A DNA stretch of 64,000 nt, taken from assembly GCA_002632355.1 (NCBI GenBank), contig NSJJ01000002.1, positions 62,001 to 126,000 on the forward strand. The letters are read 5' to 3'. How positions within the stretch are numbered: position 1 is the stretch's first letter; every line of letters starts with the position of its first letter. The translations under genes were made by a program, and so were the position numbers. Shown here piece after piece: positions 33-53,825 of this stretch. The DNA is from Sulfuricella denitrificans. GTDB taxonomy: Bacteria; Pseudomonadota; Gammaproteobacteria; Burkholderiales; Sulfuricellaceae. The notes beneath the pieces were generated by a model. It did not search any database. It was not told the DNA's origin and saw nothing but the letters and a program-made list of their open reading frames with translations.

Positions 33-1664
33 TTATGGAACAATCCACTCGCTTACCGGCATCAGCATGGTTTCACCCCCGACAGGAAATCTGGCCACGT
101 AGCTGCCCCTGGATGCAAAACGCTGCCCTGGCCCGAGGCTGAGGCGGGGATAAACGGCGGATGACAGGGATTGTTCGGTCATGTTTTCCACGCGCTCGAT
201 GAAATAATCGCGCGAGAAAGTGTCCCCCATGTGAGAAAGCGCATCACCGGCAACGGTGACGGCGAAATAGGTGCTGGACTGGATGCGCTCGTCCAGCAGC
301 GCAATGTTTCTGGCTTCGAGCCAGTGCTTGGTGCGTGACAGCCGCTGCGCACGGCGCTCCGTCAGCTCGAAGGGGTAAACCAGGCGCATCCTGTCCAGCC
401 AGGGCCCGAATAGCAGGACCTTGCAGGGCCGCGCGATCAGGCTGCCAGACAGGTATACATGCTCCATTTCAGGCGGAGTGCTTTCCTGGGAATGCAGGCT
501 TGCGATGTCTTCATCCCCCAGCCACAAAACCAGCACGCCGGGCCGGGTTTCTTCCAGCAGTTGCGACCAGAATGCAGACGACACAGGAGATTCGCCTGCC
601 ACCGGACGATCAGAAATTTCATCGATGCCGCGACGCAGCAAGGCAGCACGCATGGCCTGAGCCGGCACGCGCCCGGCGTCGTTATCGCGGAACACCTGCA
701 CGATCCGGGCTGAACGGCCGGCCTTCCTGTTCTCCGCCAGGTGTTTTGCCAGCACCTCGGCCTCCAGCATAACGCCACGTGAAAAATACAGCGTCGAATA
801 ACCGGGCTGCCCGGTTTCAGGGTAATCCACATTGGGGAACAGGCAGGGGACCCCGGCCTGCTCGCAGAATTCATGCACCGGGCGCCAGCTTCCCTCACCA
901 ATCCCGCTCAGCACGGCAAACACCGGCTGCTGCCGGTAGCGTTCTTCAAGCTGTTTTTGCCAGCGATCAGGAGGGCCGGACAAGCTCCACTCATGCAATA
1001 CCCATTTGCGGTAAACGCGGTACATCTGGTCCGTACCGGCGGATTTGCGGCGGGCTTCCTTGCGGGTGCCGCCGTTTTTGTCGCTGAAGAATGCCTGCAG
1101 CACGCCCCGCATCGCCTCCACCCGGAAAGGGTCGACGCCCGGCGTGATGATGGTGGCAAAATGGATTTCGTTTTCCGTCACGCCCGGCGCAGGATTCAGC
1201 GACAGCCCCTGCAGATAGGCGGCCAGCGGCGCAATTTCGGCATCGCTCAGGGCATAGCGCGGCATCAGCGGGTCCAGCTTGCGCCCGGCGGGATCAATGC
1301 CCTCGCGCAATGCGCGCTTCAGGCTTTCAAGCGTATAGGGCTCACGAACGGCATCCACATTGAAAAGCGCGCGGGAGCGTTCAGTGCTGCCGATCTTCCG
1401 GTTGGAAAAAAGCAGACGCCCGGCAATCGGGCGAATCTCGTTTTGCCCTTCGCTGCTGCCCAGTCCGCTGCGGCGATGGCACTTGACGCAGGCGGCATCG
1501 CCGCCGCTCAGCTCGACACCGGTCTGGGCCATGCCACGCAAGGGCATTCCGGAAGGCAGCAGGCCTTCACGATAGATGCGCTTGCCCGCCTGCTCAGGCA
1601 TGATGTCCGCCGCCGCTGCCGCCCCGGAAAGCAGCATGGCCAAAATCAGGATCCGTGGACTCAT
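33..1664 (-). CDS. Cytochrome c / periplasmic binding protein fusion
   Basis: Exported 543-residue protein with a signal peptide (about residues 1-19). An N-terminal monohaem cytochrome c domain carries the CVKCH site at 59-63. From about residue 150 it resembles the type I periplasmic binding fold of branched-chain amino acid ABC transporter receptors, yet no permease or ATPase genes are nearby. The start is the internal ATG before MSPRIL, because that gives a signal peptide; the open frame continues 43 codons upstream into the SCO1 gene. It is the last gene of the eight-gene cluster, 13 bp after the SCO1 stop. A role in electron transfer or ligand sensing with the upstream cupredoxin proteins is inferred; the ligand is unknown. 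Confidence 0.8.
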   Translation of the reverse strand: MSPRILILAMLLSGAAAAADIMPEQAGKRIYREGLLPSGMPLRGMAQTGVELSGGDAACVKCHRRSGLGSSEGQNEIRPIAGRLLFSNRKIGSTERSRALFNVDAVREPYTLESLKRALREGIDPAGRKLDPLMPRYALSDAEIAPLAAYLQGLSLNPAPGVTENEIHFATIITPGVDPFRVEAMRGVLQAFFSDKNGGTRKEARRKSAGTDQMYRVYRKWVLHEWSLSGPPDRWQKQLEERYRQQPVFAVLSGIGEGSWRPVHEFCEQAGVPCLFPNVDYPETGQPGYSTLYFSRGVMLEAEVLAKHLAENRKAGRSARIVQVFRDNDAGRVPAQAMRAALLRRGIDEISDRPVAGESPVSSAFWSQLLEETRPGVLVLWLGDEDIASLHSQESTPPEMEHVYLSGSLIARPCKVLLFGPWLDRMRLVYPFELTERRAQRLSRTKHWLEARNIALLDERIQSSTYFAVTVAGDALSHMGDTFSRDYFIERVENMTEQSLSSAVYPRLSLGPGQRFASRGSYVARFPVGGETMLMPVSEWIVP

Positions 1665-1677
1665 GGCGGGCACGCGC

Positions 1678-2349
1678 TCATCGGGATGCCAGCTGATGGT
1701 ATTCCCTGATGATATCCGGCGCACTGGCAAATCCGTCCAGCCTGACCCATGGCCGGCCAGCGCCGCCTGCCCGGATGAAGGTGGCAGGCGCATGATTCAT
1801 CTTGTCGCCGCGATAGACGCCGAAAGCGCGCTGCACTGCGATGCTGTTTTCGGCGCTGCCGGTCAGCATGGTCCATTGCGGCCCGGCGCGATATTTGCCG
1901 GCATATTCCATGAGTTTTTCCGGGGTATCGTTTTCAGGATCGATGGAAATCGAGATCATGCGCACCTTGCTGCTTTCTGCCCCAAGACGGTCCTGCACAT
2001 GGTGAAAAGTGGCGCTCATCACCGGGCAGACCGCGGTGCAGGTGGTAAAGATGAAATTCAGCAGGACAGGCTCTTTTCCGTCCAGTCCGTCGCGCAGGGA
2101 AACCTGCGCTCCGTTCATGTCCACCAGTTTGATATCAGGGATACGGTAAGCAGCGACCGATCGCGTATAGACATCGCGCATCGCATCCATGCCCTGCCCG
2201 TGGTGATGATCGTGCTCGCCGCCCAGCGCAGTCCCTGCAGCCAGCGCCAGCCCGAGCGTCAGCAGCACAGCGGACATCGTTCCGGATAACCGGAACAGGG
2301 ACAGATCTTTTTTTGATACCCGGCGTTTCATGGTGTTTTCAGTGCTCAT
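1678..2349 (-). CDS. SCO1/SenC family copper chaperone
   Basis: Membrane-anchored thioredoxin-fold protein of 223 residues. One hydrophobic segment (about 20-43) is followed by a His-rich stretch (HDHHH, 46-50). The copper-binding CTAVC motif is at 104-108 and the conserved distal His is His186 (MNHAPATF). SCO proteins deliver copper to, or reduce, copper sites; the usual client is cytochrome oxidase CuA. Here it sits inside a cluster with three cupredoxin-type proteins and away from any oxidase genes, so delivery to those proteins is inferred. The ATG at MSTEN is chosen because AAAGGGGAA lies about 7 bases upstream; an earlier in-frame ATG overlaps that ribosome site. Confidence 0.9.
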   Translation of the reverse strand: MSTENTMKRRVSKKDLSLFRLSGTMSAVLLTLGLALAAGTALGGEHDHHHGQGMDAMRDVYTRSVAAYRIPDIKLVDMNGAQVSLRDGLDGKEPVLLNFIFTTCTAVCPVMSATFHHVQDRLGAESSKVRMISISIDPENDTPEKLMEYAGKYRAGPQWTMLTGSAENSIAVQRAFGVYRGDKMNHAPATFIRAGGAGRPWVRLDGFASAPDIIREYHQLASR

Positions 2350-2385
2350 TCGGCATTCCCCTTTCATCCCGATGTAAATCTACCG

Positions 2386-4737
2386 CTACAGCACAGAAAC
2401 CCGCACAAATGCACCTGCATCCGGCGCCAGTCCCGTTGTATCCCGTACCTTGTAACGGAAAGTCTCGGTTCCGCTGAATCCGGCCCTGGGCCGGTAGGCA
2501 ATGCTGCCGTCCGGGTTGGCGACTGCCCAGCCGCCACTGTCAGGCACCGTGGTCAGAAACACCGAGGCCGGGTCGATGGTATTGGCAGGCGCATCCGGAT
2601 CGCTGTCGTTGGCCAGCACATTGACGACCACAGCCGGATAGGGAATGCCCGCCGTGCGCAGCGGCGCAATGCCCGTGTCGTCTGCCAGCAGCGGCGGCTG
2701 GTTTGCGGCAACGGGCGCAGCGGCAACTGTGACGCGCACGAAGGCGGCGCTGGCGGGAGCCAGCCCGAGCGTATCGCGCACCTTGTAGCGGAAGGTTTCC
2801 ACTCCGGTGAAACCGGCCTTGGGACGATAGGAAATAGTCCCGTCCGGATTGGCGACGGCCCAGCCGCCCTTGTCCGGCGTCGTGGTCAGGAATACCGTGG
2901 CGGGATTGATGGTGTTAGCGGGCGCATCCGGGTCGCTATCGTTGGCCAGCACATTGATGATCACCGCCGGATAGCTGGTGCCGGATACCCGCAATGGCGC
3001 GCTGGCGGCATCGTCTGCCAGCAGCGGCGGACGATTGGCGGCCGGGGGCGCAGCGGCGACAGTGACACGCACGGAGGCGGCAGAAACGGCGGCCAGGCCC
3101 AGCGTATCCTTCACCTTATAGCGGAATGTTTCCACCCCGGAGAAGCCCGCCTTGGGTCGATAGGAAACAGTCCCATCCGGATTGGCCGCCGCCCAGCCGC
3201 CCTGGTCCGGCACTGTGGTCAGAAACACCGTGGCCGGGTCGATGCTGTTGGCCGGCGCATCCGGGTCGCTATCGTTGGCCAGCACGTTGATGATCACCGC
3301 CGGATAAGTCGCGCTGCCGCGCTGCGGCGCTGCGGCAGTGTCATCCGCAGCGACGGGCGGATGGTTGGCTGCGACGAGCAACCGGTCGTAGGCCGCCCTG
3401 GCATGCGTCATGCCATTGCCGTAGCTGTTGTCCGGGCCGGCAACGCCGAGGTCCTGGGCGCTCTGCATCAGCGCGCCCTCGATGTCGGCAACGCTGGCGG
3501 CCGGGAAAGCCCCGGCCAGCAGGGCCATGACTCCTGCCGCATGCGGCGCGGCGTAGGATGTCCCGGAAACCACGGCATACAGCGGCAGGCCGCCGAAAGA
3601 CAGGTCGGACGTATTGACATTAACCCCCGGCGAAGTGATTTTCGGGTAAATGCCGCCATCGCAGGATGACACGCCACGGCTGCTGAAACTGGCGATGGTC
3701 AGGGACGAATCCACCGCCCCGGCGGAAAATCCGGCCAGATTATTGGCGGGACTCACGCTGCTCATGGGCGCGGGGCCGCTGTTGCCGGCGGCAAAGACCA
3801 CCGCGATCCCGGCCACTTTGAGATTTTCGATATCCGGATTGAATTCGGCAATACACTGCCCGGCCGTTCCGGACAGATACCATGAGGCATTGACCACGTC
3901 TGGCGCATCCGCTGTCGTCGGGTCGCCATCCGGGTCCAGCAGCCACTGGAATGCGAGGTGAATGTCGCTGTAGGCTGCCTGACCGGCATCGTTGAACAGT
4001 TTCACGGCGACCCAGCGTGCGCCGGGGGCCACGCCGATCGCACTGCCGCCCAGCGACCCGCCGACCATGATGCCCATGGTCTGTGTGCCATGGCCGTTCG
4101 GATCGAAGGGGGCAAGATGCTCGCCGTGCGGGTCGTACCAGCTGTTGCTTCCGCCGCGCCAGCTCCCGGCCAGGTCGGGATGGTTCGCATCGACGCCGGT
4201 ATCCATGCCGGCGACCACGACACCACTGCCGGCATAGCCCAGCGACCACAGGTCCGGCGCCTGTACGGCAAGCAGGTTCCACTCCGGAACGGCCATGCCG
4301 CCCAGGCTCACGGGCGGCGCCTGGAGCAGGGAATCGAGGCGTATGCTCTCGATGCCGGGACGGGATGCCAGCTCCCGGATAGCATCGGCACGGACCTTCA
4401 CCGCAATGCCATTGATGACCCACAGTTCGCGCACGCGCCTTCCACCACGGTCTTCCAGAAATTTTTTCACCGGCACCTGGGTAAGCGCGGCTTTCTGCCG
4501 CAAGGCCCTGACATGCTCGGGATCGTGTTCCTTGCGGTTTCTGGTTTTGAACAGCCGGGGGTTCACCTTGTCGGCCATGGTGATGATGACCGAAACCTCT
4601 TCGAAAGGCTTGCGGACGGTCAGCTCGTTTTCCAGCTCGGCATCGACCACCGCCGCCCTGGCCGCGGTGCTGCACAGCAATGCCAGCAGCAGCGCGCCCA
4701 GCCAGCAGCGCAGCGGATCATTTTCCGTATTTTTCAT
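2386..4737 (-). CDS. Secreted S8 (subtilisin-like) protease with three C-terminal Ig-like repeats
   Basis: A 783-residue exported serine protease. After the signal peptide (about 1-28) comes an I9-like propeptide region (about 40-140). The S8 catalytic domain follows, with Asp179 (MDTG), His216 (NGHGT), oxyanion Asn319 (AAGNS) and Ser394 (SGTSYAAP), so it should be active. The last 330 residues are three tandem repeats of about 105-110 residues, each with NDSDPD and YRP-AGF-G-ETFRYKV signatures of the cadherin/Ig-like kind. Related repeats end the cupredoxin protein encoded at 5475-7379, which suggests a shared anchor or partner. The start has AGGAGAGG just upstream and yields the signal peptide; the open frame extends 30 codons further. 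Confidence 0.92.
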   Translation of the reverse strand: MKNTENDPLRCWLGALLLALLCSTAARAAVVDAELENELTVRKPFEEVSVIITMADKVNPRLFKTRNRKEHDPEHVRALRQKAALTQVPVKKFLEDRGGRRVRELWVINGIAVKVRADAIRELASRPGIESIRLDSLLQAPPVSLGGMAVPEWNLLAVQAPDLWSLGYAGSGVVVAGMDTGVDANHPDLAGSWRGGSNSWYDPHGEHLAPFDPNGHGTQTMGIMVGGSLGGSAIGVAPGARWVAVKLFNDAGQAAYSDIHLAFQWLLDPDGDPTTADAPDVVNASWYLSGTAGQCIAEFNPDIENLKVAGIAVVFAAGNSGPAPMSSVSPANNLAGFSAGAVDSSLTIASFSSRGVSSCDGGIYPKITSPGVNVNTSDLSFGGLPLYAVVSGTSYAAPHAAGVMALLAGAFPAASVADIEGALMQSAQDLGVAGPDNSYGNGMTHARAAYDRLLVAANHPPVAADDTAAAPQRGSATYPAVIINVLANDSDPDAPANSIDPATVFLTTVPDQGGWAAANPDGTVSYRPKAGFSGVETFRYKVKDTLGLAAVSAASVRVTVAAAPPAANRPPLLADDAASAPLRVSGTSYPAVIINVLANDSDPDAPANTINPATVFLTTTPDKGGWAVANPDGTISYRPKAGFTGVETFRYKVRDTLGLAPASAAFVRVTVAAAPVAANQPPLLADDTGIAPLRTAGIPYPAVVVNVLANDSDPDAPANTIDPASVFLTTVPDSGGWAVANPDGSIAYRPRAGFSGTETFRYKVRDTTGLAPDAGAFVRVSVL
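2389..3366 (-). repeat. Three tandem Ig/cadherin-like repeat units within the protease gene
   Basis: In-frame units at about 2389-2703, 2704-3036 and 3037-3366 (105-111 codons each). Every unit starts N-x-P-P and contains NVLANDSDPD and ETFRYKV. The units are nearly identical over long stretches, which fits recent tandem duplication and may cause assembly errors. Confidence 0.9.
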
Positions 4738-4778
4738 GGCCCTCTCCTGACGAGCATGGCAAATTGCCACACGAAACT

Positions 4779-4842
4779 GTGAAGCGGGTGAAATGTGAAG
4801 TGTAATAACCACCGAGCCTGCTTTCATCCTTCACCCTTCACC
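4779..4842. repeat. Opposed arrays of short TTCAC / GTGAA units
   Basis: Between the protease and lipoprotein genes, 4822-4842 holds three heptamers of the form YTTCANC. About 20 bp away, 4779-4802 holds three GTGAA units in the opposite sense. The two arms are largely complementary and could fold as a long hairpin. A similar YTTCACN array sits between ccmC and ccmB, so this is a dispersed intergenic motif. Its function is unknown; transcript ending or processing is possible. Confidence 0.6.
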
Positions 4843-4848
4843 CTAAAA

Positions 4849-5376
4849 CTATCTGACAACCAGGTTTTCCACCTTGATATCGCCGATCACCAGTGAAACC
4901 ATCTGCCCCGCCTGCAGCCAGTGGCCTGGATTGGCAAACAGGACGTGATAATTTCTGTCAGTCATCGCATCGCTGTTGCGCCGCGTGGTCCGCAACTGGC
5001 CCAGCTTGGGCGAATCCGGCACGCCGAAGGCCGCCCCGCTCGCCTCGTCCAGCAGATAGGGCCGGACCTTGCGGTCGAACAGGGGAGCCGCCTTGAGCGG
5101 ATCGACGACCCGGTAGCGGAAATCGAGCATGTTGCCGGCAGCAGCAAGATGCACGGCACCGAATTCGATACCGAGTTGCTCGTCGCGCCGGCAATCCGTG
5201 AGTTCTTCTGATGAGGCTTCGCTCGTCCCGTACAGCGTGTTTTGTCGTGCCGCCGTACTCGAACAGCCGGAAAAAACGAGCAGGACAAAGAAGCAGCCGA
5301 GTATCGCCACCATGCTCCAGAAGTCTGAATCGGACTCCTGCTCGCCATCTGAAGCGCGTCTTTTCAGTACGTCCAT
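4849..5376 (-). CDS. Predicted lipoprotein of unknown function
   Basis: A 175-residue protein with a hydrophobic segment ending in the lipobox LVFSGC, which makes Cys38 the predicted lipidation site. The N-terminus before the hydrophobic stretch is unusually long and acidic (about 18 residues). I do not recognise the remaining domain, which is probably a small beta-rich periplasmic fold. ATG 5376 is preferred to an upstream GTG because AAGGAG lies about 8 bases before it, whereas the GTG is almost on top of that site. It lies between the protease and the cupredoxin protein genes and probably belongs to the same exported module. Confidence 0.65.
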   Translation of the reverse strand: MDVLKRRASDGEQESDSDFWSMVAILGCFFVLLVFSGCSSTAARQNTLYGTSEASSEELTDCRRDEQLGIEFGAVHLAAAGNMLDFRYRVVDPLKAAPLFDRKVRPYLLDEASGAAFGVPDSPKLGQLRTTRRNSDAMTDRNYHVLFANPGHWLQAGQMVSLVIGDIKVENLVVR

Positions 5377-5474
5377 TGCATTCACTCCTTTTTATGGCTT
5401 GATCATCCGTTCCTGATTTGCGCCGCCCCATGTGTTGGGCGACGCAAAAGGAGCCCGGCCTGTCATCGTTTCCG

Positions 5475-7379
5475 CTACTGCACATTGACCCGCACATAGG
5501 CCGCCGTCGTTGCCGCCAGTCCCAGGTTGTCCTTGACCTTGTAGCGCAAGGTCTCGGTGCCGGTGAACCCGGCCCTTGGGCGGTAGGAAATGGTGCCGTC
5601 GGGATTCACGACTGCCCAGCCGCCCTTGTTGGGGGTGACCGTGATCCATACCGTGGCCGGGTCGATGGTGCCGTCCGGGTCGGAATCGTTAACCAGCACG
5701 TTGATGATCTGTGCCGGGTAAGGCGCTGCCGTCCGGACCGGCGCAGTGACGGTATCGTCCACCAGTACCGGAGCCTGGTTGGCGGCGCTGACGGTGACCC
5801 GCACGAAGGCAGCAGGATTGGAGGCCAGACCCAGCGTATCTTTCACCTTGTAGCGGAAGGTTTCGACGCCGGTGAAGCCCACCGCAGGACGGTAGGCAAT
5901 GGTGCCGTCGCCATTGACGCTTGCTGTTCCGCCATTTCCTGGACCTACCGTGATCCACACGGAAGCCGGATCAATGGTGTTGGACGGCGTATCCGGGTCC
6001 ATATCATTGGCCAGCACGTTGATTGTCACTGCCGGGTAGGTAGCGCCTGCTGTCCGCACAGGCGCGGTAGCCGCGTCGTCGGCAGTTATCGGAGCGCGAT
6101 TGACGGCGATGACCGTGATTTTGTAAACCTGGTCGTAGCGCAGGCCGGTGGGATCTGTCACCCGCGCGGTTACCGTCTGGGTTCCGATGACGGTTGGCGT
6201 CCACGAGATCAGTCCTGCGCTGTCAACAGTCATTCCCACAGGCGGATTGACCAGGGAGAAGATCAGTGGCCCGCCGTCGGGATCGCTGGCCGTCAGCTGA
6301 TAGTTATAGAGGCTGCCGGCGGTGGCACCCGTCACCGGAGTGGATGTCATGACAGGAGAATGAACGCCATTGGCGACCACCAGACGGGCAAACATGCCGC
6401 CATCGGCAGCCGCGCCGCTAGTCAGGTACAGACGGCGATCATAGAGCGGATAATTGGCTGAGGTCGCGCCGGCCGCGAGTTGCGGGGTGACGACCGCGTC
6501 AACGGTTTTCGCCGCTGGCAGCAGTGCAGAATACTGCATCCTGGGCCATGGATAGAGATTGCCATCCTCCGCCAGCAGTTCCATGTCCATGCCGTTGATG
6601 ACCGGGACGTGGCTCTTCAGGCCGGCATTGATGAAGCGGAACAGGGTGCGCTGGCCGGCCGGAAGCGGCAGCGGCGCATCGCCAACGGTAAAGGGTTTGC
6701 CGTTGACGAGGAAATACCGGGGCTGGTAATCGAGTGTGCTGGTGATGGTCTTGCCTGGCCCGTAGTTGTCGCTTGCCACGGCGGCATGCAAATCCGGGTC
6801 GATCTCGCTGAACAGCAGCAGCAACTGGCTGTCGTAAGCGATGCCGCTATAGGCCTGACCGCTTGCCGCGTCGTGCGTCATGCCGCCGTAGAGTCCCATC
6901 TGCACCTGGACCTGGGGATGGGTACCGCTTTCATACAGGTAGGTGCCCGGCTTCAGATTGCTCCAGGTGTAAGTGCCCGTTCCGCCGTTCGCCGCCGCTT
7001 CGTGGGTGAACGACTGCACCACCCGCTTGCCGCTGGAGTTGGTGGTATACACCGGGGTCATCGAAGCCAGTTGGCCTGGAATGACGATGGAGGTCGGTAC
7101 CGCCAGGTTGTTCTTGAGATTGACGGTCAGCGAGGTGTCGCCCGGCGGTACGTTCAGCACCGGACCGGGAACCGTCGCCACGCAGGGCGGTGCCGCGCAG
7201 GATGCGCCGTCGAGCGCATAGCCCCACATCTGGATGACGGCACCGTCAGGCATCGTCAGCGGAACGGCTTCGGCGCGCAGATTGTAGCTGGCAGCGAATA
7301 CCGGGGCGGCAAGCGTCACCATCCCTGTCAGCGCCAGCGCCTGCACGAGACGTTTGGTATGTAGCGTGTTCTTTTTCAT
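5475..7379 (-). CDS. Cupredoxin-domain protein (degenerate multicopper oxidase) with Ig-like repeats
   Basis: A 634-residue exported protein with a signal peptide at about 1-30. Residues 31-340 follow the two-cupredoxin plan of multicopper oxidases, but most copper ligands are missing. The usual HxH and HCH motifs are absent. Only scattered His remain, such as FTHE (125-128) and SGTHPQ before QVQMGLYG, and the HPxHxHG motif is replaced by HVPVINGM (257-264). A putative-Ig (He_PIG-like) domain follows at about 340-426, then two repeats like those of the S8 protease. GGGAGAAGCG precedes the ATG and the upstream gene ends 17 bp away. It may be a structural or partner subunit rather than an oxidase. 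Confidence 0.8.
   Translation of the reverse strand: MKKNTLHTKRLVQALALTGMVTLAAPVFAASYNLRAEAVPLTMPDGAVIQMWGYALDGASCAAPPCVATVPGPVLNVPPGDTSLTVNLKNNLAVPTSIVIPGQLASMTPVYTTNSSGKRVVQSFTHEAAANGGTGTYTWSNLKPGTYLYESGTHPQVQVQMGLYGGMTHDAASGQAYSGIAYDSQLLLLFSEIDPDLHAAVASDNYGPGKTITSTLDYQPRYFLVNGKPFTVGDAPLPLPAGQRTLFRFINAGLKSHVPVINGMDMELLAEDGNLYPWPRMQYSALLPAAKTVDAVVTPQLAAGATSANYPLYDRRLYLTSGAAADGGMFARLVVANGVHSPVMTSTPVTGATAGSLYNYQLTASDPDGGPLIFSLVNPPVGMTVDSAGLISWTPTVIGTQTVTARVTDPTGLRYDQVYKITVIAVNRAPITADDAATAPVRTAGATYPAVTINVLANDMDPDTPSNTIDPASVWITVGPGNGGTASVNGDGTIAYRPAVGFTGVETFRYKVKDTLGLASNPAAFVRVTVSAANQAPVLVDDTVTAPVRTAAPYPAQIINVLVNDSDPDGTIDPATVWITVTPNKGGWAVVNPDGTISYRPRAGFTGTETLRYKVKDNLGLAATTAAYVRVNVQ
5478..6101 (-). 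repeat. Two Ig/cadherin-like repeats in the cupredoxin gene
   Basis: Units at about 5478-5781 and 5782-6101 share the NVL-ND-DPD, GTI-YRP and KVKDNLGLA/KVKDTLGLA signatures with the three protease repeats. The match is clear at protein level and implies duplication or exchange between genes of one cluster. Confidence 0.85.
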
Positions 7380-7396
7380 GATCGCTTCTCCCTGGA

Positions 7397-8689
7397 TTAC
7401 GGTATGGTCACGCCGATGGGTTCGATGATCAGCATGGTCATCATTCCGCCGGGGAAAATATCGTCGTTGGTGATTTCCTTCTCATTGTGGGAATGCCACA
7501 TATGGAAATAGCCGCCGTTCTCGCCCTGCGGTGTCTGTCCCGGCGGCAGGGCGCCGAACTGTCCGAGATACGGGCTGCCGCTGTAGTGAGGGCCGTAGGA
7601 AAGATCCTGGACGTTGGGCAAAATCACCGGAATGGGCTTGCCATGGTCTGCTGCGTACTCGTTCGGGGCCAGCGCATCCCCTGGCGCGTGGCCGTAGACG
7701 TCCCAGCCCAGGTTCTTGCCTGTCCATTCGAAGGTCGCATCGTAGGTTTCGCCCGGCACGGCACGAATGGTGAAATTCGACTCGGCCAGATCGGGCCCCA
7801 TCCCCGGCGCGCTTTCCAGCAGGCGCCCGTCGCGGGCGATGGTCCAGGTATTGTTGCCATGGGTATGGAGGGGGTGCAGGTCGCGCCCGGCATCGACCAC
7901 GCGCAGCAGGATTTTATCTCCGGCATGCATGCGCGGCACGCAGTTGTAGGGCTGGGTCGGCAGCCACGGCACATTGGCGTCGAGCAGGGTGTCCGGCGCG
8001 TTGCGTCCGTTGAGGAACCACAGCGTCGGGCGGAAAGTGCTGGTATCCACTGCGGGCGCTGCGGACGGATTGGCCGTCACCAGCGCATCGACCTGGGCAT
8101 GGATCAGCGGGTCCATCTCGGTGAGCAGGAACAGGTACTCATGGTCGAAGGCGGTGCCGGGATGGGCATAGGCCTGGTGCAGCGGGTCGGGGCTGGCGGG
8201 CCGCACGATCAGCGCGCCCAGCATCCCCATCTCGACCTGCAGCGAAGGATTGCTGCCGCTGTGGTAGAGATAGGTGCCGGGATTGCCGGCAACGAAGCTG
8301 TAGGTCACGCTGCCGCCGCCGGGCAGCACCTCGTTGGTCATCAGTCCCGGTGTGCCGCCGCTGGCGACGACGTTGTTCTGGCCGGGGAAGACAATGGACA
8401 CCGGGGCGGGAACCGGCAACGCGTTGCTCAGGGTGACGGTGACGGTATCGCCCTGGTTGACGATCATGGTCACGCCCGGGTACTGCATTCTCCCGCTACC
8501 GCTGGCATAGCCCCAGGCATAGTGAACGTTGCCGTCCGCGCTGGAGACATAATCCGCCCTTGCTGTCAGGTTGAAGGTATTTGACGTGACGCCGTCCACG
8601 ACGGCCCACGCCACATTGGTCACCGCAAGCAGCAGCAGCGTCATGACAACGTTGAGCAATCGCGGGCATTTGCAGGTCAGCTGGTTCAT
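7397..8689 (-). CDS. Two-domain multicopper oxidase-like protein lacking the type 1 copper cysteine
   Basis: A 430-residue exported protein with a signal peptide at about 1-30. Domain 1 ends in LYHSGSNPSLQVEMGM, where a copper-binding family member would have HCH. Domain 2 keeps HPLHTHG (272-278), the canonical trinuclear-site motif. It ends with HMWHSH (396-401), in which Ser400 replaces the type 1 Cys and an inserted segment precedes GGMM. So it retains some trinuclear-type ligands but no visible type 1 site. AGGAGGACGAT precedes the ATG; it sits 22 bp after the intact-looking paralogue. Cooperation with its neighbours in one oxidase assembly is inferred. Confidence 0.85.
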   Translation of the reverse strand: MNQLTCKCPRLLNVVMTLLLLAVTNVAWAVVDGVTSNTFNLTARADYVSSADGNVHYAWGYASGSGRMQYPGVTMIVNQGDTVTVTLSNALPVPAPVSIVFPGQNNVVASGGTPGLMTNEVLPGGGSVTYSFVAGNPGTYLYHSGSNPSLQVEMGMLGALIVRPASPDPLHQAYAHPGTAFDHEYLFLLTEMDPLIHAQVDALVTANPSAAPAVDTSTFRPTLWFLNGRNAPDTLLDANVPWLPTQPYNCVPRMHAGDKILLRVVDAGRDLHPLHTHGNNTWTIARDGRLLESAPGMGPDLAESNFTIRAVPGETYDATFEWTGKNLGWDVYGHAPGDALAPNEYAADHGKPIPVILPNVQDLSYGPHYSGSPYLGQFGALPPGQTPQGENGGYFHMWHSHNEKEITNDDIFPGGMMTMLIIEPIGVTIP

Positions 8690-8711
8690 ATCGTCCTCCT
8701 CTTTTCGCAGA

Positions 8712-9902
8712 TCAGTTGACGCGGATTTCGGTCATCATTCCGCCGAAATCCTGCACGTCGTTGCTCAGATAATTGAGATTGGTGGTGTAAAGAAAGTAGG
8801 TGCCTGCCGGCGCGCCTGAAGTATCGACCAGCACATCCGCCGATTCGCCGCCACCGATGGTGACGGAACTGGTGTTGAAGGCGAGGTCCTTGCCATCTGG
8901 CCCGCGAGCGATATGGGCACCGCTGCCGACTACCCGCATCGGCAGGCCGAGAACGGAGATGGTGTAGTAGTTGACCACGCTGAGATTGGACAGACGCAGG
9001 AGGATTTTTTCCCCCGCATTCGCCGTGATCAGCGCACTCAGTTTCTGCGATGTCAGGCCGCCGTTTTCGACCGGAGCAGGCAAGGGGTTGGGATCGACCG
9101 TATCCGGATAACCGCGCCCGTTGATCATGGGATAGGTATCGCGCAGCGTGGAGAACGGCAGCGGCTGGATGGCGAGATGGTCTTCGTGGAACTTGCGGTC
9201 GAAGCCGCTCAACTGCAGCGGATAGGCCTTGTTGTAGCCGGTCGAGCCATCGCCGTCGTTGTAGGTGAAGGCGGTATAGGTCTTGCCGTTATAAGTCTTG
9301 GGCTGCCCGTCCTGGGCCGGCCTGACATACAGGTTGCCCAGCATGCCCATCTGCATGTGCTCGGTCGCCTCCTGATGGCAGTGGTACATGAAGGTACCGG
9401 GCTCGAGGACATTGTAGAAATAGGTCACGCTGGAACCCATGTTCACCCCGAAAGACCCCTCTGGCATGCCGTCGAACACCGGCGCCGCCTGCGGGAAACC
9501 GTGGAAGTGGACGGTGTGCGGGTCGAACAGGTCAGGCCGCATCACCATGCCGACATTGGTCAGCGAGAGAAAAAACTTGTTGCCTTCCTTGAGCTCGATG
9601 GTGGGAGCGGAAAATTCAGCCGCCAACTCGCCCTGGGCGAAGACCTGATCAGGTGGAACGCCGGTGATATCGTGGAAGCCGAAGTTGTAAAGCACGTTGC
9701 CGTCCGCCATGGAGATGAATCCGTCTCCGGCGCTAAGGGATTTGCACACCACGTTCGGATCGGCCGGGCCGTCCGGAATGCCATCGCCGTTGGTGTCTCC
9801 TGGACACTGCACGAAGACGGCTGCCGTGGCGGGGAGAGAGACAGCCCACATGACGGCGGCTGCCAGGGAAGCGGTAAGTTTGAAAAGATTTTTGGTGCTC
9901 AT
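8712..9902 (-). CDS. Multicopper oxidase-type protein with an intact HCH motif
   Basis: A 396-residue exported protein with a signal peptide at about 1-28. A calcium-binding-like loop DTNGDGIPDG (37-46) follows. Domain 1 has HFHG (132-135) and HCH (174-176) with His182 and a Met-rich MQMGM tail, giving a plausible type 1 copper site. Domain 2 (about 290-396) has a cupredoxin outline but almost no His ligands. The arrangement is therefore complementary to the next gene, which keeps domain 2 ligands and lacks those of domain 1. AAAGGAG lies upstream of the chosen ATG. It is first of the three cupredoxin genes and lies 59 bp after the giant beta-helix gene. Confidence 0.88.
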   Translation of the reverse strand: MSTKNLFKLTASLAAAVMWAVSLPATAAVFVQCPGDTNGDGIPDGPADPNVVCKSLSAGDGFISMADGNVLYNFGFHDITGVPPDQVFAQGELAAEFSAPTIELKEGNKFFLSLTNVGMVMRPDLFDPHTVHFHGFPQAAPVFDGMPEGSFGVNMGSSVTYFYNVLEPGTFMYHCHQEATEHMQMGMLGNLYVRPAQDGQPKTYNGKTYTAFTYNDGDGSTGYNKAYPLQLSGFDRKFHEDHLAIQPLPFSTLRDTYPMINGRGYPDTVDPNPLPAPVENGGLTSQKLSALITANAGEKILLRLSNLSVVNYYTISVLGLPMRVVGSGAHIARGPDGKDLAFNTSSVTIGGGESADVLVDTSGAPAGTYFLYTTNLNYLSNDVQDFGGMMTEIRVN

Positions 9903-9961
9903 GATCTTTCTCCTTTGACCGGGCCACCGGAAACAGTCTCCGGCGGTCCGAGTTGCCACGG

Positions 9962-12900
9962 TTACTGTTGCTCGTCCGCACCAATGTCGGGCGGGTTCGA
10001 ACGTGCCTGGCCGTCAATGTCTACCTGGCAGTTGGCCGGCGTTGCGCACTGCACCTGGGTTCCCCTGTTGATGGCTGGGGAGCCCGCGTTCAGGTGGTAA
10101 TTGCCGGACGGGGTGAGCGGACCGAAGCGCACATCGATCCAGTTGCCGCCTTCGTCAAAGGCTGGAGCGGTGGTAATGGCGGTCGTGAACTCAGGTTGCT
10201 GAACAGTCTGTCCAGGCTGACCGTTGACATATCCCGCGATGAACGCCGGGTCGACCATCAGGTTGGAAGCTGCATAGCCTGTGGTATCGGTCAGCACGCT
10301 GAAAGTCGGGTTGAGCAACGCCGGGGTTGAAGTGCCCAGCACAGCCAGATCCCAGTAGACAGGCGCTTCGCCGCCAGCACCAAGGCTTGGATGCAGACCG
10401 AAGCTCGGCGGCGTGGTGGTATTGTCGATGGTCCAGTAGAACGAGCGGTTGTGCCATACGATGTTGTTCACCAGCAGCGGGTTCGAGTATCCGACCTTGT
10501 AAGGACGGGCACTATTGCCGTTGCCTATGGTGCTGTTCAGCAGCGTACTGCTCGCACGCGAGACGATCCCCGCTGGCTGCGCCGTCGACTGGTTCGGGCT
10601 GTTGGCTGCGAATGCCGCCCCTGCCGTTGCCGTGCTGTCGTTATTGGCAATGGTGTTGTTGGCAATGGTGGTGTAGATGGCATCCTGTAAGGAGATGCCG
10701 CCGCCTGCCATGCCTGCCATGTTGTCAGTCACGATGTTGTTGACGATGGTCAGCGGGAACCAGCCTGACGGGAAGTTCGGAGCGCGGACCACATCCTGGC
10801 CATTGACGAACTGGGCCGCAATGCCGCCGCCATCACCTGCCCCGGCCTGGTTGCCCTGGATCAGGTTGCTGGTGATGGTCACCTTGCCGGTGCCCGGTGA
10901 GAGACCAGCGCCATTCAGAGGTGGCTGACCGCCGACGAAGATGCCGCCGCCGGAGACATTCACGCCCTGGTTGAAGGTCTGGTTGAAGATCACCGTATTG
11001 TTGGCAATCATGCTGCCGCCGCTCCAGCCCAGATGGCCGATACCGCCACCATTGCCAGCACTGAAGTTGCCGCAGATGTAATTGCCGCTGACGTTGTAGT
11101 TCTGGCTGCCGTTGCAGATCGCTACGCCGCCGCCTACCGCACCGTCGGTTTCCGCGCCATTCTGCGCGATGTGGTTGTTGTGGATGGAAACAAAATTGTT
11201 CTGGCTATCCGTGACATTGCCGTTGGCATCGACCAGGTCGGGGTGACCGAGACGGATGCCGCCGCCGTACAGGCCGTTGTTGGCAACGATCTTGTTGTTG
11301 CTGATCTCCAGATAATTGGCGTAGCCATTGACGAAGATGCCGCCGCCGGTGTCGCCGCCGGTGATGCTCAAACCGTCGATGCGCGCATGTGCCGTGCCGT
11401 TGGCAAATGCATTCGTCCTGGCAACCACCATGATGCCAGCGCCCTCCTCGGTGTTGAACAGGTTAGGCTCGTTGTTGGGCACATTGACGCCCACCGTCTG
11501 CCCGGGAACCAGGTCGAAGGTCCGGCTTGCACCGCCGTTGGCGTACTTGATGTTGACCAGGGTGCGCCAGCTGTTGATCTTTTCTGCTGGCACCTTGGCA
11601 GCATTGATGGTCGTGGACAGCGCACCCCAGCCTTGCAGGCGGATTTTCTTGTCCATGATCACCAGCTCGTCGTAGCGGCCGGGTGGCACCAGGATCAGGT
11701 CGCCCGGGTTGGCGGCATCGATCGCTGCCTGGATCTTGCTGCCCGGCAGCATCGCCCTGACAGTGGTACCGGCAGGCGTGCCGACCGTGACTGTCACACC
11801 GAGACTTGAGGTCTTGAGATTGTTGGCCGCGATCTGACGTGTAACTTCCAGTTGCCCGGTCGTCACATTCGTGGTCCCGACGGTTCTGGGAACGCGAACC
11901 TCGATGATATCGTTGCTCCATGAAATCACCGGCAGGCTCAGTCCGCCCAGGCTCACCTTGCTGCCTGCGCCCTGTGCGCCGAAACCGAAGTCGCGCAGGA
12001 TATTCCGTGGTGTAGCCGTGGTTCCGTCATAAGCCGGATTCGGCACTTCCATCATGCCTGCCGAAACAATCCTCAGTCTCGGCTGATTGGCGACAGTCGT
12101 GCTGGGAACCGGCACGAAAGGTCCGTTCTGGCTGGTGCCAGTCGAAGTCACGCCTTCTACGGAATAGATCACCGGCGTGCCATCGGCAAATTCACAATCC
12201 AGCGGGAACTGCCCCGGACCGGCGAATGCAGCCACCGGCAGCACAGGCGTATCCAGATAGGTGGTCTTGCCCGGCAGGTACTGGAAGGTATAGCAGAACT
12301 GGCTGTACTGGCGGCTGAAGTACGGATCGATCACCAGGTTGCCGCGGCCATCCGGTATCGGACCGGGGTCGTTCATGCAGGTGGTGATCATGTTGGGCGC
12401 CACACCGGACGGCATGGGGACGTTCACTGAATAAGTGGACGGCACCAGCGCATTGAAAGTCCCCCACTGGTCTGCATAGACGCGGGAAATCTCGCGTCCG
12501 CTCCAGTCGCGGATCGATACCGGCACCCATGCCGGGGCCTGTTTCTCGCCGAAAGTCGGGGCATTGGGATCGAACTCGTTGGCCAGATCGTTGAGGATCA
12601 TGCCGACGATATGGCCGGAGACCGGTACTTCGGTAAACATGAAGAAGTCAGCCGCGGCATTCTTGCCCTGGACCACATCGACCGCCTTGCGATCGCACAG
12701 CGGACGCTGCTGTCCGGCGTAAGCAGAAGGCACGCCGGGGAACAGGGCCAGTTCGTTCGGGACTGTATGCAGATCGCCCACGCAGGCAGGTGGCAGCGCC
12801 AGCGTACCCGGCTTGTAGGCATCGCCGAAATCGACGTTCTTGTCTTCTTCTTTTTCAGTCAGATAACCTGCGGGCGCAACGGACTCGACGATATACCTGC

Positions 12901-15064
12901 CAGCAGGAAGTTCCGCATCACCTGCGGGAGGTCCGAAGGCATAACCGCCATCGAACACTGCCGGGCGAACCTGGTTGAAGTTGCGCAGGCCGTCGTAGCA
13001 GTCCGTGGTATATCCGTTGGAAACAAACGGCTCACCCTGACAACCGCTGGGCAGCTTGTCGTCCCAGCTATCGGTGGTGCCGATCTTGTAGGCGTCGCCC
13101 GGGTCGAATACGCCGTTGCCGTTGCGGTCGATATCTTCAGCACCGGGGAAGTTGCCGAACGGCCAGTTGTCCACATCGGCAAGTACCACGCTGGCGGCCG
13201 TATTCAGCCCGGTCGTTGCGGTGCAGTCGGCCTTGTCGATGATGCCATCGGCGTTACAGTCGCGATACAGGTTCACCTGAACGCGCGGAATGCCCGGCTC
13301 CCAGTTTTCCGCCACGGCAAAGCGCGGGTCTTCCTCGGCACGGGTAATGGCGTAATGCACGATGCCGGTAATGCCGCCGTTCTCTCCTGGGGCATAAACA
13401 TTTTTGCCCCACTCGATCACATTGGTCTGACCGAGGAAAGTCTGGATGCCTTGCAGCAGGACCGGACCGGTTTCGGTGCGATAGGGCAGGCCGCCATTAT
13501 CGGTCTGCGGTTGCGGATTCAGCTTGTTCCATGACGGCATTGCCCAGCCGCCATGCGGTGGAACCGGACCACCGGCATCCACCACGATGGTCGCGCCGGT
13601 CGCCTTGAAGCGGGCGAAATCCACTTCGGCCACCAGCCAGTTGAAGAAGGGGAACACTTCGCTAAACATGGCATCGCCATTCGCATCGGTCAGTTGCGAC
13701 TGGTAAATGCTGCCGTCGCGGAAGCGCAGATTGACTGCCTGCCCGCCGATGCCGACCTCGCCGGTGTCGCGGAATCCATTATTGTTGGCATCGAAAAACA
13801 CCCGGCTGTCGAGCCTGCCGAACCACCTGAAAACCGGCACTTCCTGCAGATCGATAGCCGCGCCGCCTGTCGGTACCGTGACATTATGCGAGGCGATGAC
13901 GACATCCAGATTCTCGTCCCAGATGACCAGCTGATAAGCTCCGGCCGCCACGTTGGGGATGGAGAAAGTGCTGTCCGCCTTGCAGGGGGTGGTAAAGACC
14001 GCACGCCCGCCGGCAACGGCAAGTTCGTTCAGGCCGATCCAGCATTGCGGGATGGGTTCGCCGTTGTAAAAGGAAAAATTCGGCGGCCGGGCACTGTGCA
14101 TGTTGACCACCTTGCCGCTGATCGTGCTGCTGCCGGTCAGCACCGTACGATCGTTGAGGGCCATTTTGACGAAGCCGACGAATACATGGTGTCCGGGCGG
14201 GCCGAATTCCTGGAAGAAACTGGGCTCGTTGGCTTTCACCCAGGCATCGTCACCCTTGGTGCCCTCGATGGTGGAAGTCTGGATATAACCCGAACCGGCG
14301 GGAGGAATCACCTCGATCGTATACTTGGCTGGCGGCAGGTATTTGATCAGCGCCGTGCCATCCGCGCCGGACTTGATGAAGCCGCTGCCCTTGACGCTGA
14401 TCACCGGCGCACCCGCAACCATCACCGGCGTGCCGTCCGGATTCTTCTGATACTCGGTACCGATGGGATTGCCGAAGGCATCCTGGGTCACCTGACCGCC
14501 TGAGGCGCCATAGGTGCCGCCCGCCTCCTTCAGGGTAATGGAGAAACCAGCCAGCCCCGTTTCCTGCGGCAGATCAGGGGCGGCATTGATAGGCTGGTTG
14601 TCATTGAAAACAAAAATGGAAATCTGCGCCGTCGGGATCGGGGTCTTGTTCACCACGATATTCACCGCCATCTGCCCCGGCGCGACCGCAGCGCCGCCCA
14701 TCTGGTAGCCGTCGTCAGGCATCACCGAGACGTAATAGCGCTTCAGCGGGTCGAGCGTGAGCGCCGCCGGCGACCTGAGCGGATCGGTACTGTTGCCAGC
14801 CGCGACCACTGGCATGTAGCTGGTATGGAAGCTGAGAGCAAGATTGCTGCCGTCTGCCGGCACGCCAGGAATGGATGCCTTGGTGGCATCTTCCTCCACC
14901 AGCCAGCGGTAGCCCGGCACGACCGCGCCATCCGAGCCAGCGACGTTGATGCTGAGCGCCACCGCATACTGCGGACTCAGCACTGCCAGCAACAGCGAGG
15001 CGAAAATCAGCCGCCAGGATTTCTGCAGCACCCCTCCAAAATATTTCATGGCATTGGTTTTCAT
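9962..15064 (-). CDS. Giant secreted right-handed beta-helix protein with SdrD-like and IPT domains
   Basis: A 1700-residue exported protein. A signal peptide (about 1-37) is followed by a string of beta-sandwich regions of the carboxypeptidase-regulatory / SdrD-B kind. One of them (about 416-500) contains the calcium-type loop DANNNGFRDTGE, and others carry DCNADGIID (about 600) and DRNGNGVFD (about 645). An IPT/TIG-like region (about 1015-1105) precedes a pectate-lyase-like beta-helix (about 1110-1670), which opens with IQAAIDAANPGDLILVPPG and repeats NN-I--N---GGGI. The C-terminus (DIGADEQQ) resembles beta-helix proteins with an end cap. GGGAGG lies 5 bases before the ATG. It is the first gene of the cluster; a surface scaffold or adhesin role is inferred. 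Confidence 0.88.
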   Translation of the reverse strand: MKTNAMKYFGGVLQKSWRLIFASLLLAVLSPQYAVALSINVAGSDGAVVPGYRWLVEEDATKASIPGVPADGSNLALSFHTSYMPVVAAGNSTDPLRSPAALTLDPLKRYYVSVMPDDGYQMGGAAVAPGQMAVNIVVNKTPIPTAQISIFVFNDNQPINAAPDLPQETGLAGFSITLKEAGGTYGASGGQVTQDAFGNPIGTEYQKNPDGTPVMVAGAPVISVKGSGFIKSGADGTALIKYLPPAKYTIEVIPPAGSGYIQTSTIEGTKGDDAWVKANEPSFFQEFGPPGHHVFVGFVKMALNDRTVLTGSSTISGKVVNMHSARPPNFSFYNGEPIPQCWIGLNELAVAGGRAVFTTPCKADSTFSIPNVAAGAYQLVIWDENLDVVIASHNVTVPTGGAAIDLQEVPVFRWFGRLDSRVFFDANNNGFRDTGEVGIGGQAVNLRFRDGSIYQSQLTDANGDAMFSEVFPFFNWLVAEVDFARFKATGATIVVDAGGPVPPHGGWAMPSWNKLNPQPQTDNGGLPYRTETGPVLLQGIQTFLGQTNVIEWGKNVYAPGENGGITGIVHYAITRAEEDPRFAVAENWEPGIPRVQVNLYRDCNADGIIDKADCTATTGLNTAASVVLADVDNWPFGNFPGAEDIDRNGNGVFDPGDAYKIGTTDSWDDKLPSGCQGEPFVSNGYTTDCYDGLRNFNQVRPAVFDGGYAFGPPAGDAELPAGRYIVESVAPAGYLTEKEEDKNVDFGDAYKPGTLALPPACVGDLHTVPNELALFPGVPSAYAGQQRPLCDRKAVDVVQGKNAAADFFMFTEVPVSGHIVGMILNDLANEFDPNAPTFGEKQAPAWVPVSIRDWSGREISRVYADQWGTFNALVPSTYSVNVPMPSGVAPNMITTCMNDPGPIPDGRGNLVIDPYFSRQYSQFCYTFQYLPGKTTYLDTPVLPVAAFAGPGQFPLDCEFADGTPVIYSVEGVTSTGTSQNGPFVPVPSTTVANQPRLRIVSAGMMEVPNPAYDGTTATPRNILRDFGFGAQGAGSKVSLGGLSLPVISWSNDIIEVRVPRTVGTTNVTTGQLEVTRQIAANNLKTSSLGVTVTVGTPAGTTVRAMLPGSKIQAAIDAANPGDLILVPPGRYDELVIMDKKIRLQGWGALSTTINAAKVPAEKINSWRTLVNIKYANGGASRTFDLVPGQTVGVNVPNNEPNLFNTEEGAGIMVVARTNAFANGTAHARIDGLSITGGDTGGGIFVNGYANYLEISNNKIVANNGLYGGGIRLGHPDLVDANGNVTDSQNNFVSIHNNHIAQNGAETDGAVGGGVAICNGSQNYNVSGNYICGNFSAGNGGGIGHLGWSGGSMIANNTVIFNQTFNQGVNVSGGGIFVGGQPPLNGAGLSPGTGKVTITSNLIQGNQAGAGDGGGIAAQFVNGQDVVRAPNFPSGWFPLTIVNNIVTDNMAGMAGGGISLQDAIYTTIANNTIANNDSTATAGAAFAANSPNQSTAQPAGIVSRASSTLLNSTIGNGNSARPYKVGYSNPLLVNNIVWHNRSFYWTIDNTTTPPSFGLHPSLGAGGEAPVYWDLAVLGTSTPALLNPTFSVLTDTTGYAASNLMVDPAFIAGYVNGQPGQTVQQPEFTTAITTAPAFDEGGNWIDVRFGPLTPSGNYHLNAGSPAINRGTQVQCATPANCQVDIDGQARSNPPDIGADEQQ

Positions 15065-15483: not shown

Positions 15484-15792
15484 TCACGCAGCGAGTTCTT
15501 GAAGAATTTCGGGATGGAGCCTGGCGACCCGGAAGAGGGTTTTCGCCGCACCCGATGGCTCGCGACGCCCCTGTTCCCAGTCTTGGAGCGTGCGCACAGA
15601 AACTCCAAGCAGTGCCGCGAATGCAGTTTGAGAAAGCCCAGACACCAAACGGGCGTGAGCAATTTCAGAAATCTCGGGACGATGGACACGAGCGCGAATA
15701 CCGGCCTTCATTTCACGCACCGACATGAGTAGTTCAGCGCCAATATCAATTGCGGGCTGATGGCTGACAGGCTTCTGTTTGGCTTTATGCAT
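15484..15792 (-). CDS. XRE-family antitoxin (NadS/HigA type)
   Basis: A 102-residue DNA-binding protein whose C-terminal half is a helix-turn-helix: LSQTAFAALLGVSVRTLQDW, then EQGRREPSG. This is typical of NadS-like antitoxins paired with RelE-type toxins. It should neutralise the toxin and repress the operon by binding the palindrome in the upstream promoter. The start overlaps the toxin stop by 8 bp (ATGCATAA), which implies translational coupling and sets the start. Toxin-first order is usual for HigBA-like pairs. Confidence 0.9.
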   Translation of the reverse strand: MHKAKQKPVSHQPAIDIGAELLMSVREMKAGIRARVHRPEISEIAHARLVSGLSQTAFAALLGVSVRTLQDWEQGRREPSGAAKTLFRVARLHPEILQELAA

Positions 15793-16099
15793 TTTCGATC
15801 TCCTCTTTGATCTGCCGAAGTACATGCGCTGGAATATTTTCACGCACAGACTTTCCGTAGACCAGTAACAACCAGACTTCTCCGTTGGCGAGGCGGTTGA
15901 AGTAAATGACTCGCACCCCACCACGCTTGCCACGACCAGCACTCCCCCACCGAGCTTTTCTTACGCCTCCCGACCCGGGCACGACATCGCCAGCTTCTGG
16001 ATCTCCGGCGATGAAGTTGATAAAGCTGATTCGATCTTCATCATTCCAGCAGTCGCTGGCGAGGCGGACGAACGTAGGCGTTTCGATGACCGTGAACAT
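15785..16099 (-). CDS. RelE/HigB-family toxin
   Basis: A 104-residue protein matching the RelE/ParE superfamily in length and pattern. It has a basic core (RKARWGSAGRGKRGG), then VRVIYF and VWLLLVYGKS strands, and ends in an acidic-basic helix. Members are usually ribosome-dependent mRNA endonucleases; no activity can be proven here. ATG 16099 is chosen because the promoter's -10 element ends only about 8 bp upstream, so the longer frame to 16135 would begin at the -35 element. The mRNA would then be leaderless or nearly so. It is coupled to the antitoxin by an 8-bp overlap. Confidence 0.88.
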   Translation of the reverse strand: MFTVIETPTFVRLASDCWNDEDRISFINFIAGDPEAGDVVPGSGGVRKARWGSAGRGKRGGVRVIYFNRLANGEVWLLLVYGKSVRENIPAHVLRQIKEEIENA

Positions 16100-16106
16100 G
16101 GACTCA

Positions 16107-16135
16107 AATATACGGCAATGCCGTAGTTTAGTCAA
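16107..16135 (-). promoter_or_regulatory. Toxin-antitoxin promoter with operator in the spacer
   Basis: Read on the minus strand, TTGACT (16130-16135) and TATATT (16107-16112) are separated by exactly 17 bp. A perfect palindrome, TACGGCA-A-TGCCGTA (16111-16125), lies between them and touches the -10, ideally placed for repression by the antitoxin. The predicted transcript start (about 16100) falls at the toxin ATG. Confidence 0.85.
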
Positions 16136-16289: not shown

Positions 16290-16679
16290 TCATGTCGCCA
16301 GACCGGAGAGCATGCCGTCCACGACAGAAATGATCGCGGCCTCGGTGGATTCATCCTTGACGATGAAATGATCCGCACCGCTGCAGAAAGCAGCATCCCT
16401 GTATTCCGGCAGGTCGAAACTGGTGATGACGCAGATCAGGGGGTGGATATCGGTGCTTTTGATGATGCGGATGATATCGAGGCCATTTTTTCCAGGCATT
16501 CTGATGTCCATGAAAACCAGATCCGGAATCCGCTGCGCCACGCTATTCAGCGCGCCCTCCCCTTCGCCTGCCTGGCTGACCTGCATGAAAGGAAAATGCC
16601 GCACCAGGATGTGCCGCAACGATTGACGGAAGGCTTCATTGTCGTCGACGATCAGCACATTGAGTTTCTTCATCTGCAT
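16290..16679 (-). CDS. Stand-alone response regulator receiver domain
   Basis: A 129-residue single receiver domain with the acidic pocket DD (12-13), phosphoacceptor Asp58 (FMDIRMP), a Thr/Ser position in VITSFDL and the conserved Lys in FIVKDES. There is no output domain, so it acts by protein contact, CheY-style, or in a phosphorelay. No histidine kinase gene is adjacent. The gene follows the lytic transglycosylase gene by 12 bp on the same strand, so they are probably co-transcribed. Two ATGs are possible (16679 and 16673) and neither has a strong ribosome site. Confidence 0.88.
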   Translation of the reverse strand: MQMKKLNVLIVDDNEAFRQSLRHILVRHFPFMQVSQAGEGEGALNSVAQRIPDLVFMDIRMPGKNGLDIIRIIKSTDIHPLICVITSFDLPEYRDAAFCSGADHFIVKDESTEAAIISVVDGMLSGLAT

Positions 16680-53092: not shown

Positions 53093-53130
53093 AAACTTAT
53101 TCCTCCGTTATTTTATGGTGATGTGCTGGC

Positions 53131-53778: not shown

Positions 53779-53825
53779 TTCCATCCTCCTATTGGTTTTT
53801 ATTGCAAGGTACAACTTTTTATTAT

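Follow-up and report, generated by a model that had tools for sequence, protein, structure and literature searches.

A run of genes for exported proteins with cupredoxin domains in Sulfuricella denitrificans raises the question of whether they encode one copper-dependent machine at the cell surface and, if so, on what substrate it would act. We analysed a stretch of 64,000 nucleotides, hereafter the window, which corresponds to positions 62001-126000 of its own contig (C4) in a genome of 3.09 Mb. The original prediction had proposed that eight genes facing one way form a single extracellular oxidation system, possibly for metals or for electron uptake.

Eight co-directional genes encode putatively exported proteins

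We found eight co-directional ORFs, here termed A to H, at 33-15064 on the minus strand, with intergenic gaps of 13-111 bp when likely starts are taken, and both the predicted placement and the predicted domain types proved correct. Protein families were assigned by Pfam and NCBIfam, and signal peptides, like the lipobox of E, were identified by eye. Gene A (9962-15064) encodes an exported giant protein in which Ig-like/SdrD_B repeats are followed by a beta-helix with a choice-of-anchor Q end; SdrD_B and choice-of-anchor Q are matched, the beta-helix matches are weak, and we propose the protein to be a scaffold or adhesin. Genes B (8712-9905) and C (7397-8689) encode cupredoxin proteins that both match Cu-oxidase, and D (5475-7379) encodes a degenerate cupredoxin with Big_9 repeats, for which Cu-oxidase_3 lies barely above its cut-off (24.1 vs 21 bits). 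The product of E (4849-5385; likely start 5376 or 5385) is a putative lipoprotein with a predicted Ig-like sandwich, which has no Pfam or NCBIfam family at E <= 1 and whose predicted fold has no structural match at E <= 0.001, the best ones being unspecific Ig-like folds. F (2386-4737) encodes an S8 (subtilisin-like) peptidase with three Big_9 repeats (Peptidase_S8, Big_9), G (1678-2367) a SCO1/SenC copper chaperone with a CxxxC motif (SCO1-SenC), and H (33-1664) a MofC-like protein that combines a one-haem cytochrome c (Cytochrom_C, 22.5 vs a cut-off of 21.3) with a periplasmic binding domain (Peripla_BP_6, slightly below cut-off at 31.1 vs 31.7).

On the minus strand, 0 promoter-like or terminator-like sites were found in the gaps, a weak negative because the scan yielded fewer sites than did its shuffled controls (3 vs 5.3 and 10 vs 15.0). 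A glyoxalase-like ORF in the same direction starts about 40 bp past the last gene, just beyond the window, and an Rfam search of the window returned two tRNAs and nothing else.

Four genes form a conserved unit

Upon scanning genome contigs with an alignment of B, we found 433 relatives of this protein; all locus counts refer to the best 80 of these 433, picked by B alone. A was present in 76 of the 80 loci, B in 80, C in 80, D in 74, E in 63 and the peptidase gene F in 46, with H in 26, G in 24 and both of the latter together in 23. The presence of a C homologue in all 80 loci chosen by B alone is more than chance, and wherever A (four loci) or D (six loci) is missing, the contig ends there. 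A coarser screen gave D in 80 and F in 49 of the 80 loci, because cupredoxin paralogues and repeats were not separated. When adjacency was defined as genes in order with a spacing of -200 to 400 bp, A and B were adjacent in 68 of 70 loci, with 6 more in which they are fused into one ORF, followed by B-C (77/80), C-D (72/74), D-E (55/63) and E-F (41/46). Exceptions to the order were F before E in L079, L099, L103 and L105, an A fragment on the opposite strand in L090, and overlapping long ORFs in L040 and L092.

A-B-C-D is therefore a conserved unit, and the predicted co-occurrence holds for it, with homologues that are not scattered; the counts of F, G and H do not bear out the view that all eight genes are core. 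G and H vary in place and strand among loci, which would fit a reading of the cluster as unrelated exported proteins that are chance neighbours, but the conservation and fusion of A-B-C-D in effect refute this for A to D, and we regard it as very improbable.

Some of the encoded proteins have common C-terminal domains: A and D in 10 of 60 loci vs 31 of 3540 between-locus pairs, D and F in 15 of 45 vs 305 of 1980, A and F in 3 of 43 vs 2 of 1806, and B-D and C-D in 1 of 68 each. The common domains of A, D and F were rejected as proof of one complex, and count as support because the sharing is partial.

By record title, the 80 loci fall into eight phyla, sulfate reducers among them: Pseudomonadota (37), Thermodesulfobacteriota (14), Nitrospirota (9), Myxococcota (9), Acidobacteriota (2), Planctomycetota (2), Bacteroidota (1) and Bdellovibrionota (1), with 5 loci having no phylum (three Hydrogenedentes); single or short phylum cases may be misbinned because most loci are metagenome bins, the Bacteroidota case being a 4.7 kb contig, and Deltaproteobacteria titles were possibly mapped to the wrong phylum. 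The tree of B has 23 phylum-label changes, compared with a minimum of 11 and with 37 needed in shuffles, and the bins and paralogues bar a conclusion on between-phylum transfer. The B model matched at E <= 1e-40 in at least 2 of 398 genomes of the phylum, own genome included, which is a lower bound, as scoring was limited to at most four candidates in each genome, and C matches spanning most of its length were observed in 4 of 100 relatives, own included. A tblastn search of C against plasmid records yielded 403 records, with 8 covering at least 80% of the query, all of them from Paraburkholderia or Cupriavidus. Among viral contigs, 47 stretches matched a pattern and 0 were relatives.

The copper ligands are divided between two proteins

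We investigated the copper ligands of the three cupredoxin proteins. In B, residues H130, H133, H135, H175, C176, H177, H183 and M188 are invariant (84/84 aligned rows), and domain 1 holds a full type-1 copper ligand set together with four trinuclear histidines. C has no ligands in domain 1, and in domain 2 it carries the other four, with H272, H275 and H277 constant in 83/83 rows and H399 and H401 in 79/79. The alignment has no corresponding copper ligand set in D, so that of the three cupredoxin proteins originally predicted B and C keep copper ligands and D has none. The search pattern EH[ML]QMGM, carried by 78 of the 80 loci, includes H183, M186 and M188 of B, and the invariance of these residues is selected for because they sit in it; the other five histidines and the cysteine of B, as well as all C ligands, are not part of the pattern.

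In phmmer alignments, C spans both domains of 3g5w, with the domain-1 ligands replaced and the domain-2 ligands kept, and B aligns to domain 1. The AlphaFold2 model of C (mean pLDDT 85.4; loop 357-390 poor) has 2zwn as its best PDB match, then 3g5w, indicating a two-domain multicopper oxidase (MCO) fold; the two-cupredoxin fold is assigned to C by the model and to B by sequence matches only. In two-domain MCOs, each trinuclear site is shared by neighbouring chains, one of which contributes domain 1 and the other domain 2. The division of ligands between B and C therefore suggests that a single oxidase site is probably formed jointly by the two proteins, and the inter-chain sites of two-domain MCOs point to one B-C site with D as third subunit. 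The window resembles two-domain MCOs (2zwn, 3g5w) in the fold of C and in the domain-wise ligand positions, but in those enzymes each chain has both site halves (compare the 3g5w alignment), whereas here the halves lie in different proteins and the third has none. Ceruloplasmin and MnxG are six-domain MCOs, with six cupredoxin domains and one trinuclear site; in domain architecture, the window would be like them only if B, C and D assemble, and it has three genes in place of one chain.

The predicted use of copper is strongly implied by the ligands of B and C and by nearby SCO1 or NosL chaperones. The NosL family occurs in 5 of the 80 loci, other than the 24 SCO1 loci (one NosL confirmed by Pfam), and the ABC and FtsX families occur in 6 and 7 loci (one member each confirmed by Pfam). 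L062, L063, L068, L086 and L090 have a NosL-family copper chaperone and ABC/FtsX genes beside the core module, with SCO1 absent, and this is a replaced copper supply.

The cluster is a variant of one noticed in iron oxidisers

The original prediction knew of no described system of such composition. However, Slit_1812-1818 of Sideroxydans lithotrophicus ES-1 was noted in 2017 (PMC5566968) and was raised on magnetite (PMC12016527). In ES-1, three MCO genes lie in tandem, accompanied by mofC-like and copper chaperone genes, and these MCOs are stated as not homologous to known metal oxidoreductases (PMC5566968). Slit_1812-1818 was more abundant in late cultures on magnetite than in those on Fe(II)-citrate, has canonical motifs in two of its three cupredoxins, and has kin in Burkholderiales, Anaeromyxobacter and Steroidobacteraceae, and the authors' main candidate in ES-1 is MtoAB, not the cupredoxins (PMC12016527). 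A literature search on five Slit locus tags found PMC12016527 alone. Like the window, the ES-1 cluster groups SCO1, a cytochrome and small proteins with three cupredoxins, of which one lacks copper motifs, and its named kin include Paraburkholderia. The window's cluster is a variant of this cluster already noticed in iron oxidisers.

We distinguish two types of locus. In type I, D and A are fused into one giant protein placed after C (L021, L022, L028): of the 8 plasmid loci two were compared, and the Cupriavidus metallidurans locus has B, C, the giant D + A protein, E, G and H, and a Paraburkholderia locus (L022) is the same with no G match seen. The window represents type II, in which A heads the cluster as a gene separate from D and the S8 peptidase is added. 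In the tree of B, from which ES-1 itself is absent, type I (Cupriavidus, Paraburkholderia and genome G004, in the same three rows) stands apart from the window and its relatives with support of 100. Both types occur in one genus because G004 belongs to the window's own genus, and type II genes occur on a contig whose title names Sideroxydans sp. (L084). Like ES-1, the window has three cupredoxin genes in tandem, two of them with MCO motifs and the third lacking these, and SCO1 and cytochrome genes inside the cluster; it differs in that its motif-less cupredoxin is not fused to a large adhesin-like part and in that its B falls outside the type I clade of that tree without ES-1. The divided copper site and the secretion link described below are new and testable, and the type II loci are possibly drawn in Fig. 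S4 of PMC12016527. No shared-site MCO and no gene order like the present one is named in the open literature searched, mostly at the level of titles and abstracts.

The cluster could instead belong to the manganese or iron systems of the MofA/OmpB family (MofABC of Leptothrix, OmpB of Geobacter), which have SCO1, a MofC-like cytochrome/binding protein and a secretin type in common with it; a MofC-like pairing of cytochrome and binding domain, as in H, is described in PMC5566968. However, the MofA/OmpB oxidase consists of a single very large chain for which blastp detects no kinship to B, C or D, and the MofB-like PPIase of MofA clusters is absent from the window's eight proteins (Pfam/NCBIfam). 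B, C and D had no blastp match at E <= 1e-4 to the one protein compared (L140), which is termed MofA-like from its neighbours only, and hhalign against it gave probabilities of 21% and 1%. We consider membership in this family improbable. In locus L139 (genome G089), a third MCO kind (650 aa, Cu-oxidase_2) lies between SCO1 and a MofC-like gene; the pair of SCO1 and MofC-like genes therefore seems to serve several exported MCO types.

A related type II secretion system lies nearby

Eight secretin matches were found in the window's own genome. A type II system (a secretin with cohesin domain, secretion proteins E, F and G, and pseudopilins) lies at about 37.5-47.5 kb of C4, on the same strand and 14.5 kb from gene H, not adjacent to the cluster. 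Its secretin is 67% identical to that of G004, 50% to those in G165 and L071 and 49% to that of Cupriavidus, whereas identity to six other own secretins is 24-30% over shorter stretches and the seventh gave no match. In Cupriavidus a type II system directly precedes B, and in G004 B and the secretin are 3.4 kb apart. In G165 a MofA-like protein is encoded 1.5 kb from the secretin, with SCO1, MofC-like and PPIase genes after it, and the secretin beside the MofA-like locus L140 is of the same kind as the nearby one of the window genome. In Geobacteraceae, OmpB export needs the Pul system, with OxpG (PMC3543383; also the title of Mehta 2006). Type II secretion genes lie near 10 of the 80 loci, two of which are near copies (L085, L106), and the secretion E/F matches may be pilus genes.

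The nearby secretin (L023 13075-15429; C4 about 39-41 kb) ends in its cohesin domain, and in L086 and L095 both A and D terminate in dockerin-like motifs. Cohesin-dockerin docking of exported proteins is possible, a lead only because the motifs come from different genomes.

Proposed mechanism and substrate

We propose that the cluster encodes one exported redox complex for extracellular metal or mineral, with a shared B-C site, A as scaffold and type II export, and we judge the chances for and against this whole proposal to be evenly balanced. B, C and D, as two-domain cupredoxins, would form a trimer of the two-domain MCO kind with one live site, to which domain 1 of B would supply the type-1 copper and four trinuclear histidines and domain 2 of C the other four, with D as a dead structural subunit. 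The beta-helix protein A would hold the enzyme at the surface or on the mineral, E and F may anchor or mature it, SCO1 (G) would load copper and H would act on the periplasmic side. Export would proceed by Sec and then by the Pul/Oxp-like type II system 14.5 kb away, and the complex would most likely exchange electrons with metal outside the cell, probably in solids that bear Fe(II) or Mn. This analysis observed the gene order, the conservation, the ligand pattern and the kinship of the secretion system; we infer the B-C-D trimer, the shared site, the cell location, the export route and the substrate. The complex is favoured by gene order and co-occurrence, the ligand split, the fold of C, the A-B and D-A fusions, the copper chaperones and the secretin kinship. 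Against the export proposal, the nearby type II secretin is not adjacent to the cluster, and the genome has seven other secretin matches.

A role with metals or in electron uptake, as the original prediction had suggested, gains indirect support by analogy from the magnetite rise published for the sister cluster (PMC12016527), and ORFs with three or more haem motifs in 10 of the 80 loci also favour a metal or mineral role. Against it, the evidence on function comes from the sister type, where the authors favour MtoAB, and the host carries dsrA, because of which sulphur may be its donor. Furthermore, an O2-reducing site makes little sense for many holders because many are anaerobes by name. MtrB/PioB had no match in the own genome, in a search whose control gave no signal either.

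The same complex may act on another substrate, oxidising phenols, humic matter or other organics in the manner of a laccase at the surface and perhaps cross-linking a matrix. The fold of C resembles two-domain laccases, MCOs are promiscuous, and a polysaccharide-like gene set lies at 18-25 kb of the window (by eye), but the sister cluster responds to magnetite (PMC12016527) and metal-linked MCO clusters have these same partners, SCO1 and a MofC-like protein; we find this reading unlikely. Somewhat less likely again is a protective surface layer that binds or oxidises copper or removes surface oxygen and has no respiratory role. The anaerobes among the holders by title would fit such a layer, as would the copper handling indicated by the chaperones, but the NCBIfam copper-resistance MCO model scores 49.5 against a cut-off of 479 bits, and a dedicated cytochrome partner is present in 26 of the 80 loci.

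Returning to the proposed redox complex, its most far-reaching form joins a two-gene active site, a dead subunit, a beta-helix scaffold and Pul/Oxp-like export into a widespread surface redox machine of aerobes and anaerobes that would pass electrons to or from solid metals largely without haem, and this we hold more tentatively, with the balance tipped slightly against it. An uncharacterised cluster of iron oxidisers becomes a module found in eight phyla by record titles, with a sharp prediction (one B-C copper site) and a candidate export route. If the mineral redox role is true, it would mean largely haem-free extracellular electron exchange, from freshwater iron oxidisers to sulfate reducers.

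Neighbouring genes

Two further genes lie upstream on the minus strand and are associated with the cluster, not core: a response-regulator receiver protein (16290-16679; Pfam Response_reg) and a lytic transglycosylase (16692-17309; Pfam SLT). A receiver-domain match, which is unspecific, occurs in 22 of the 80 loci, and the transglycosylase in 9 of the 80 as well as in the three type I loci L021, L022 and L028. A response-regulator family is present in 21 of the 80 loci, one member being a sigma-54 activator, and 11 loci have a sensor family.

Between the response regulator and A, the minus strand carries two ORFs at 15484-16135, one RelE-like (25 bits, cut-off 27) and the other HTH antitoxin-like. 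Relatives such as L031 have no such pair listed there, and it is perhaps an inserted toxin-antitoxin module; PADLOC gave weak helix-turn-helix matches and nothing more for it. Beyond the polysaccharide-like set, we observed by eye, at 29000-51400, apparent genes for cytochrome c maturation and for a cbb3 oxidase together with a copper ATPase. At 52400-53835 on the minus strand, two paralogues that look exported, each of about 230 aa and encoded in tandem, have a common MHNG...RNQNQDNN-NPAFGKTSR stretch and adjoin a flavoprotein that resembles sulfide:quinone oxidoreductase, both likewise by eye.
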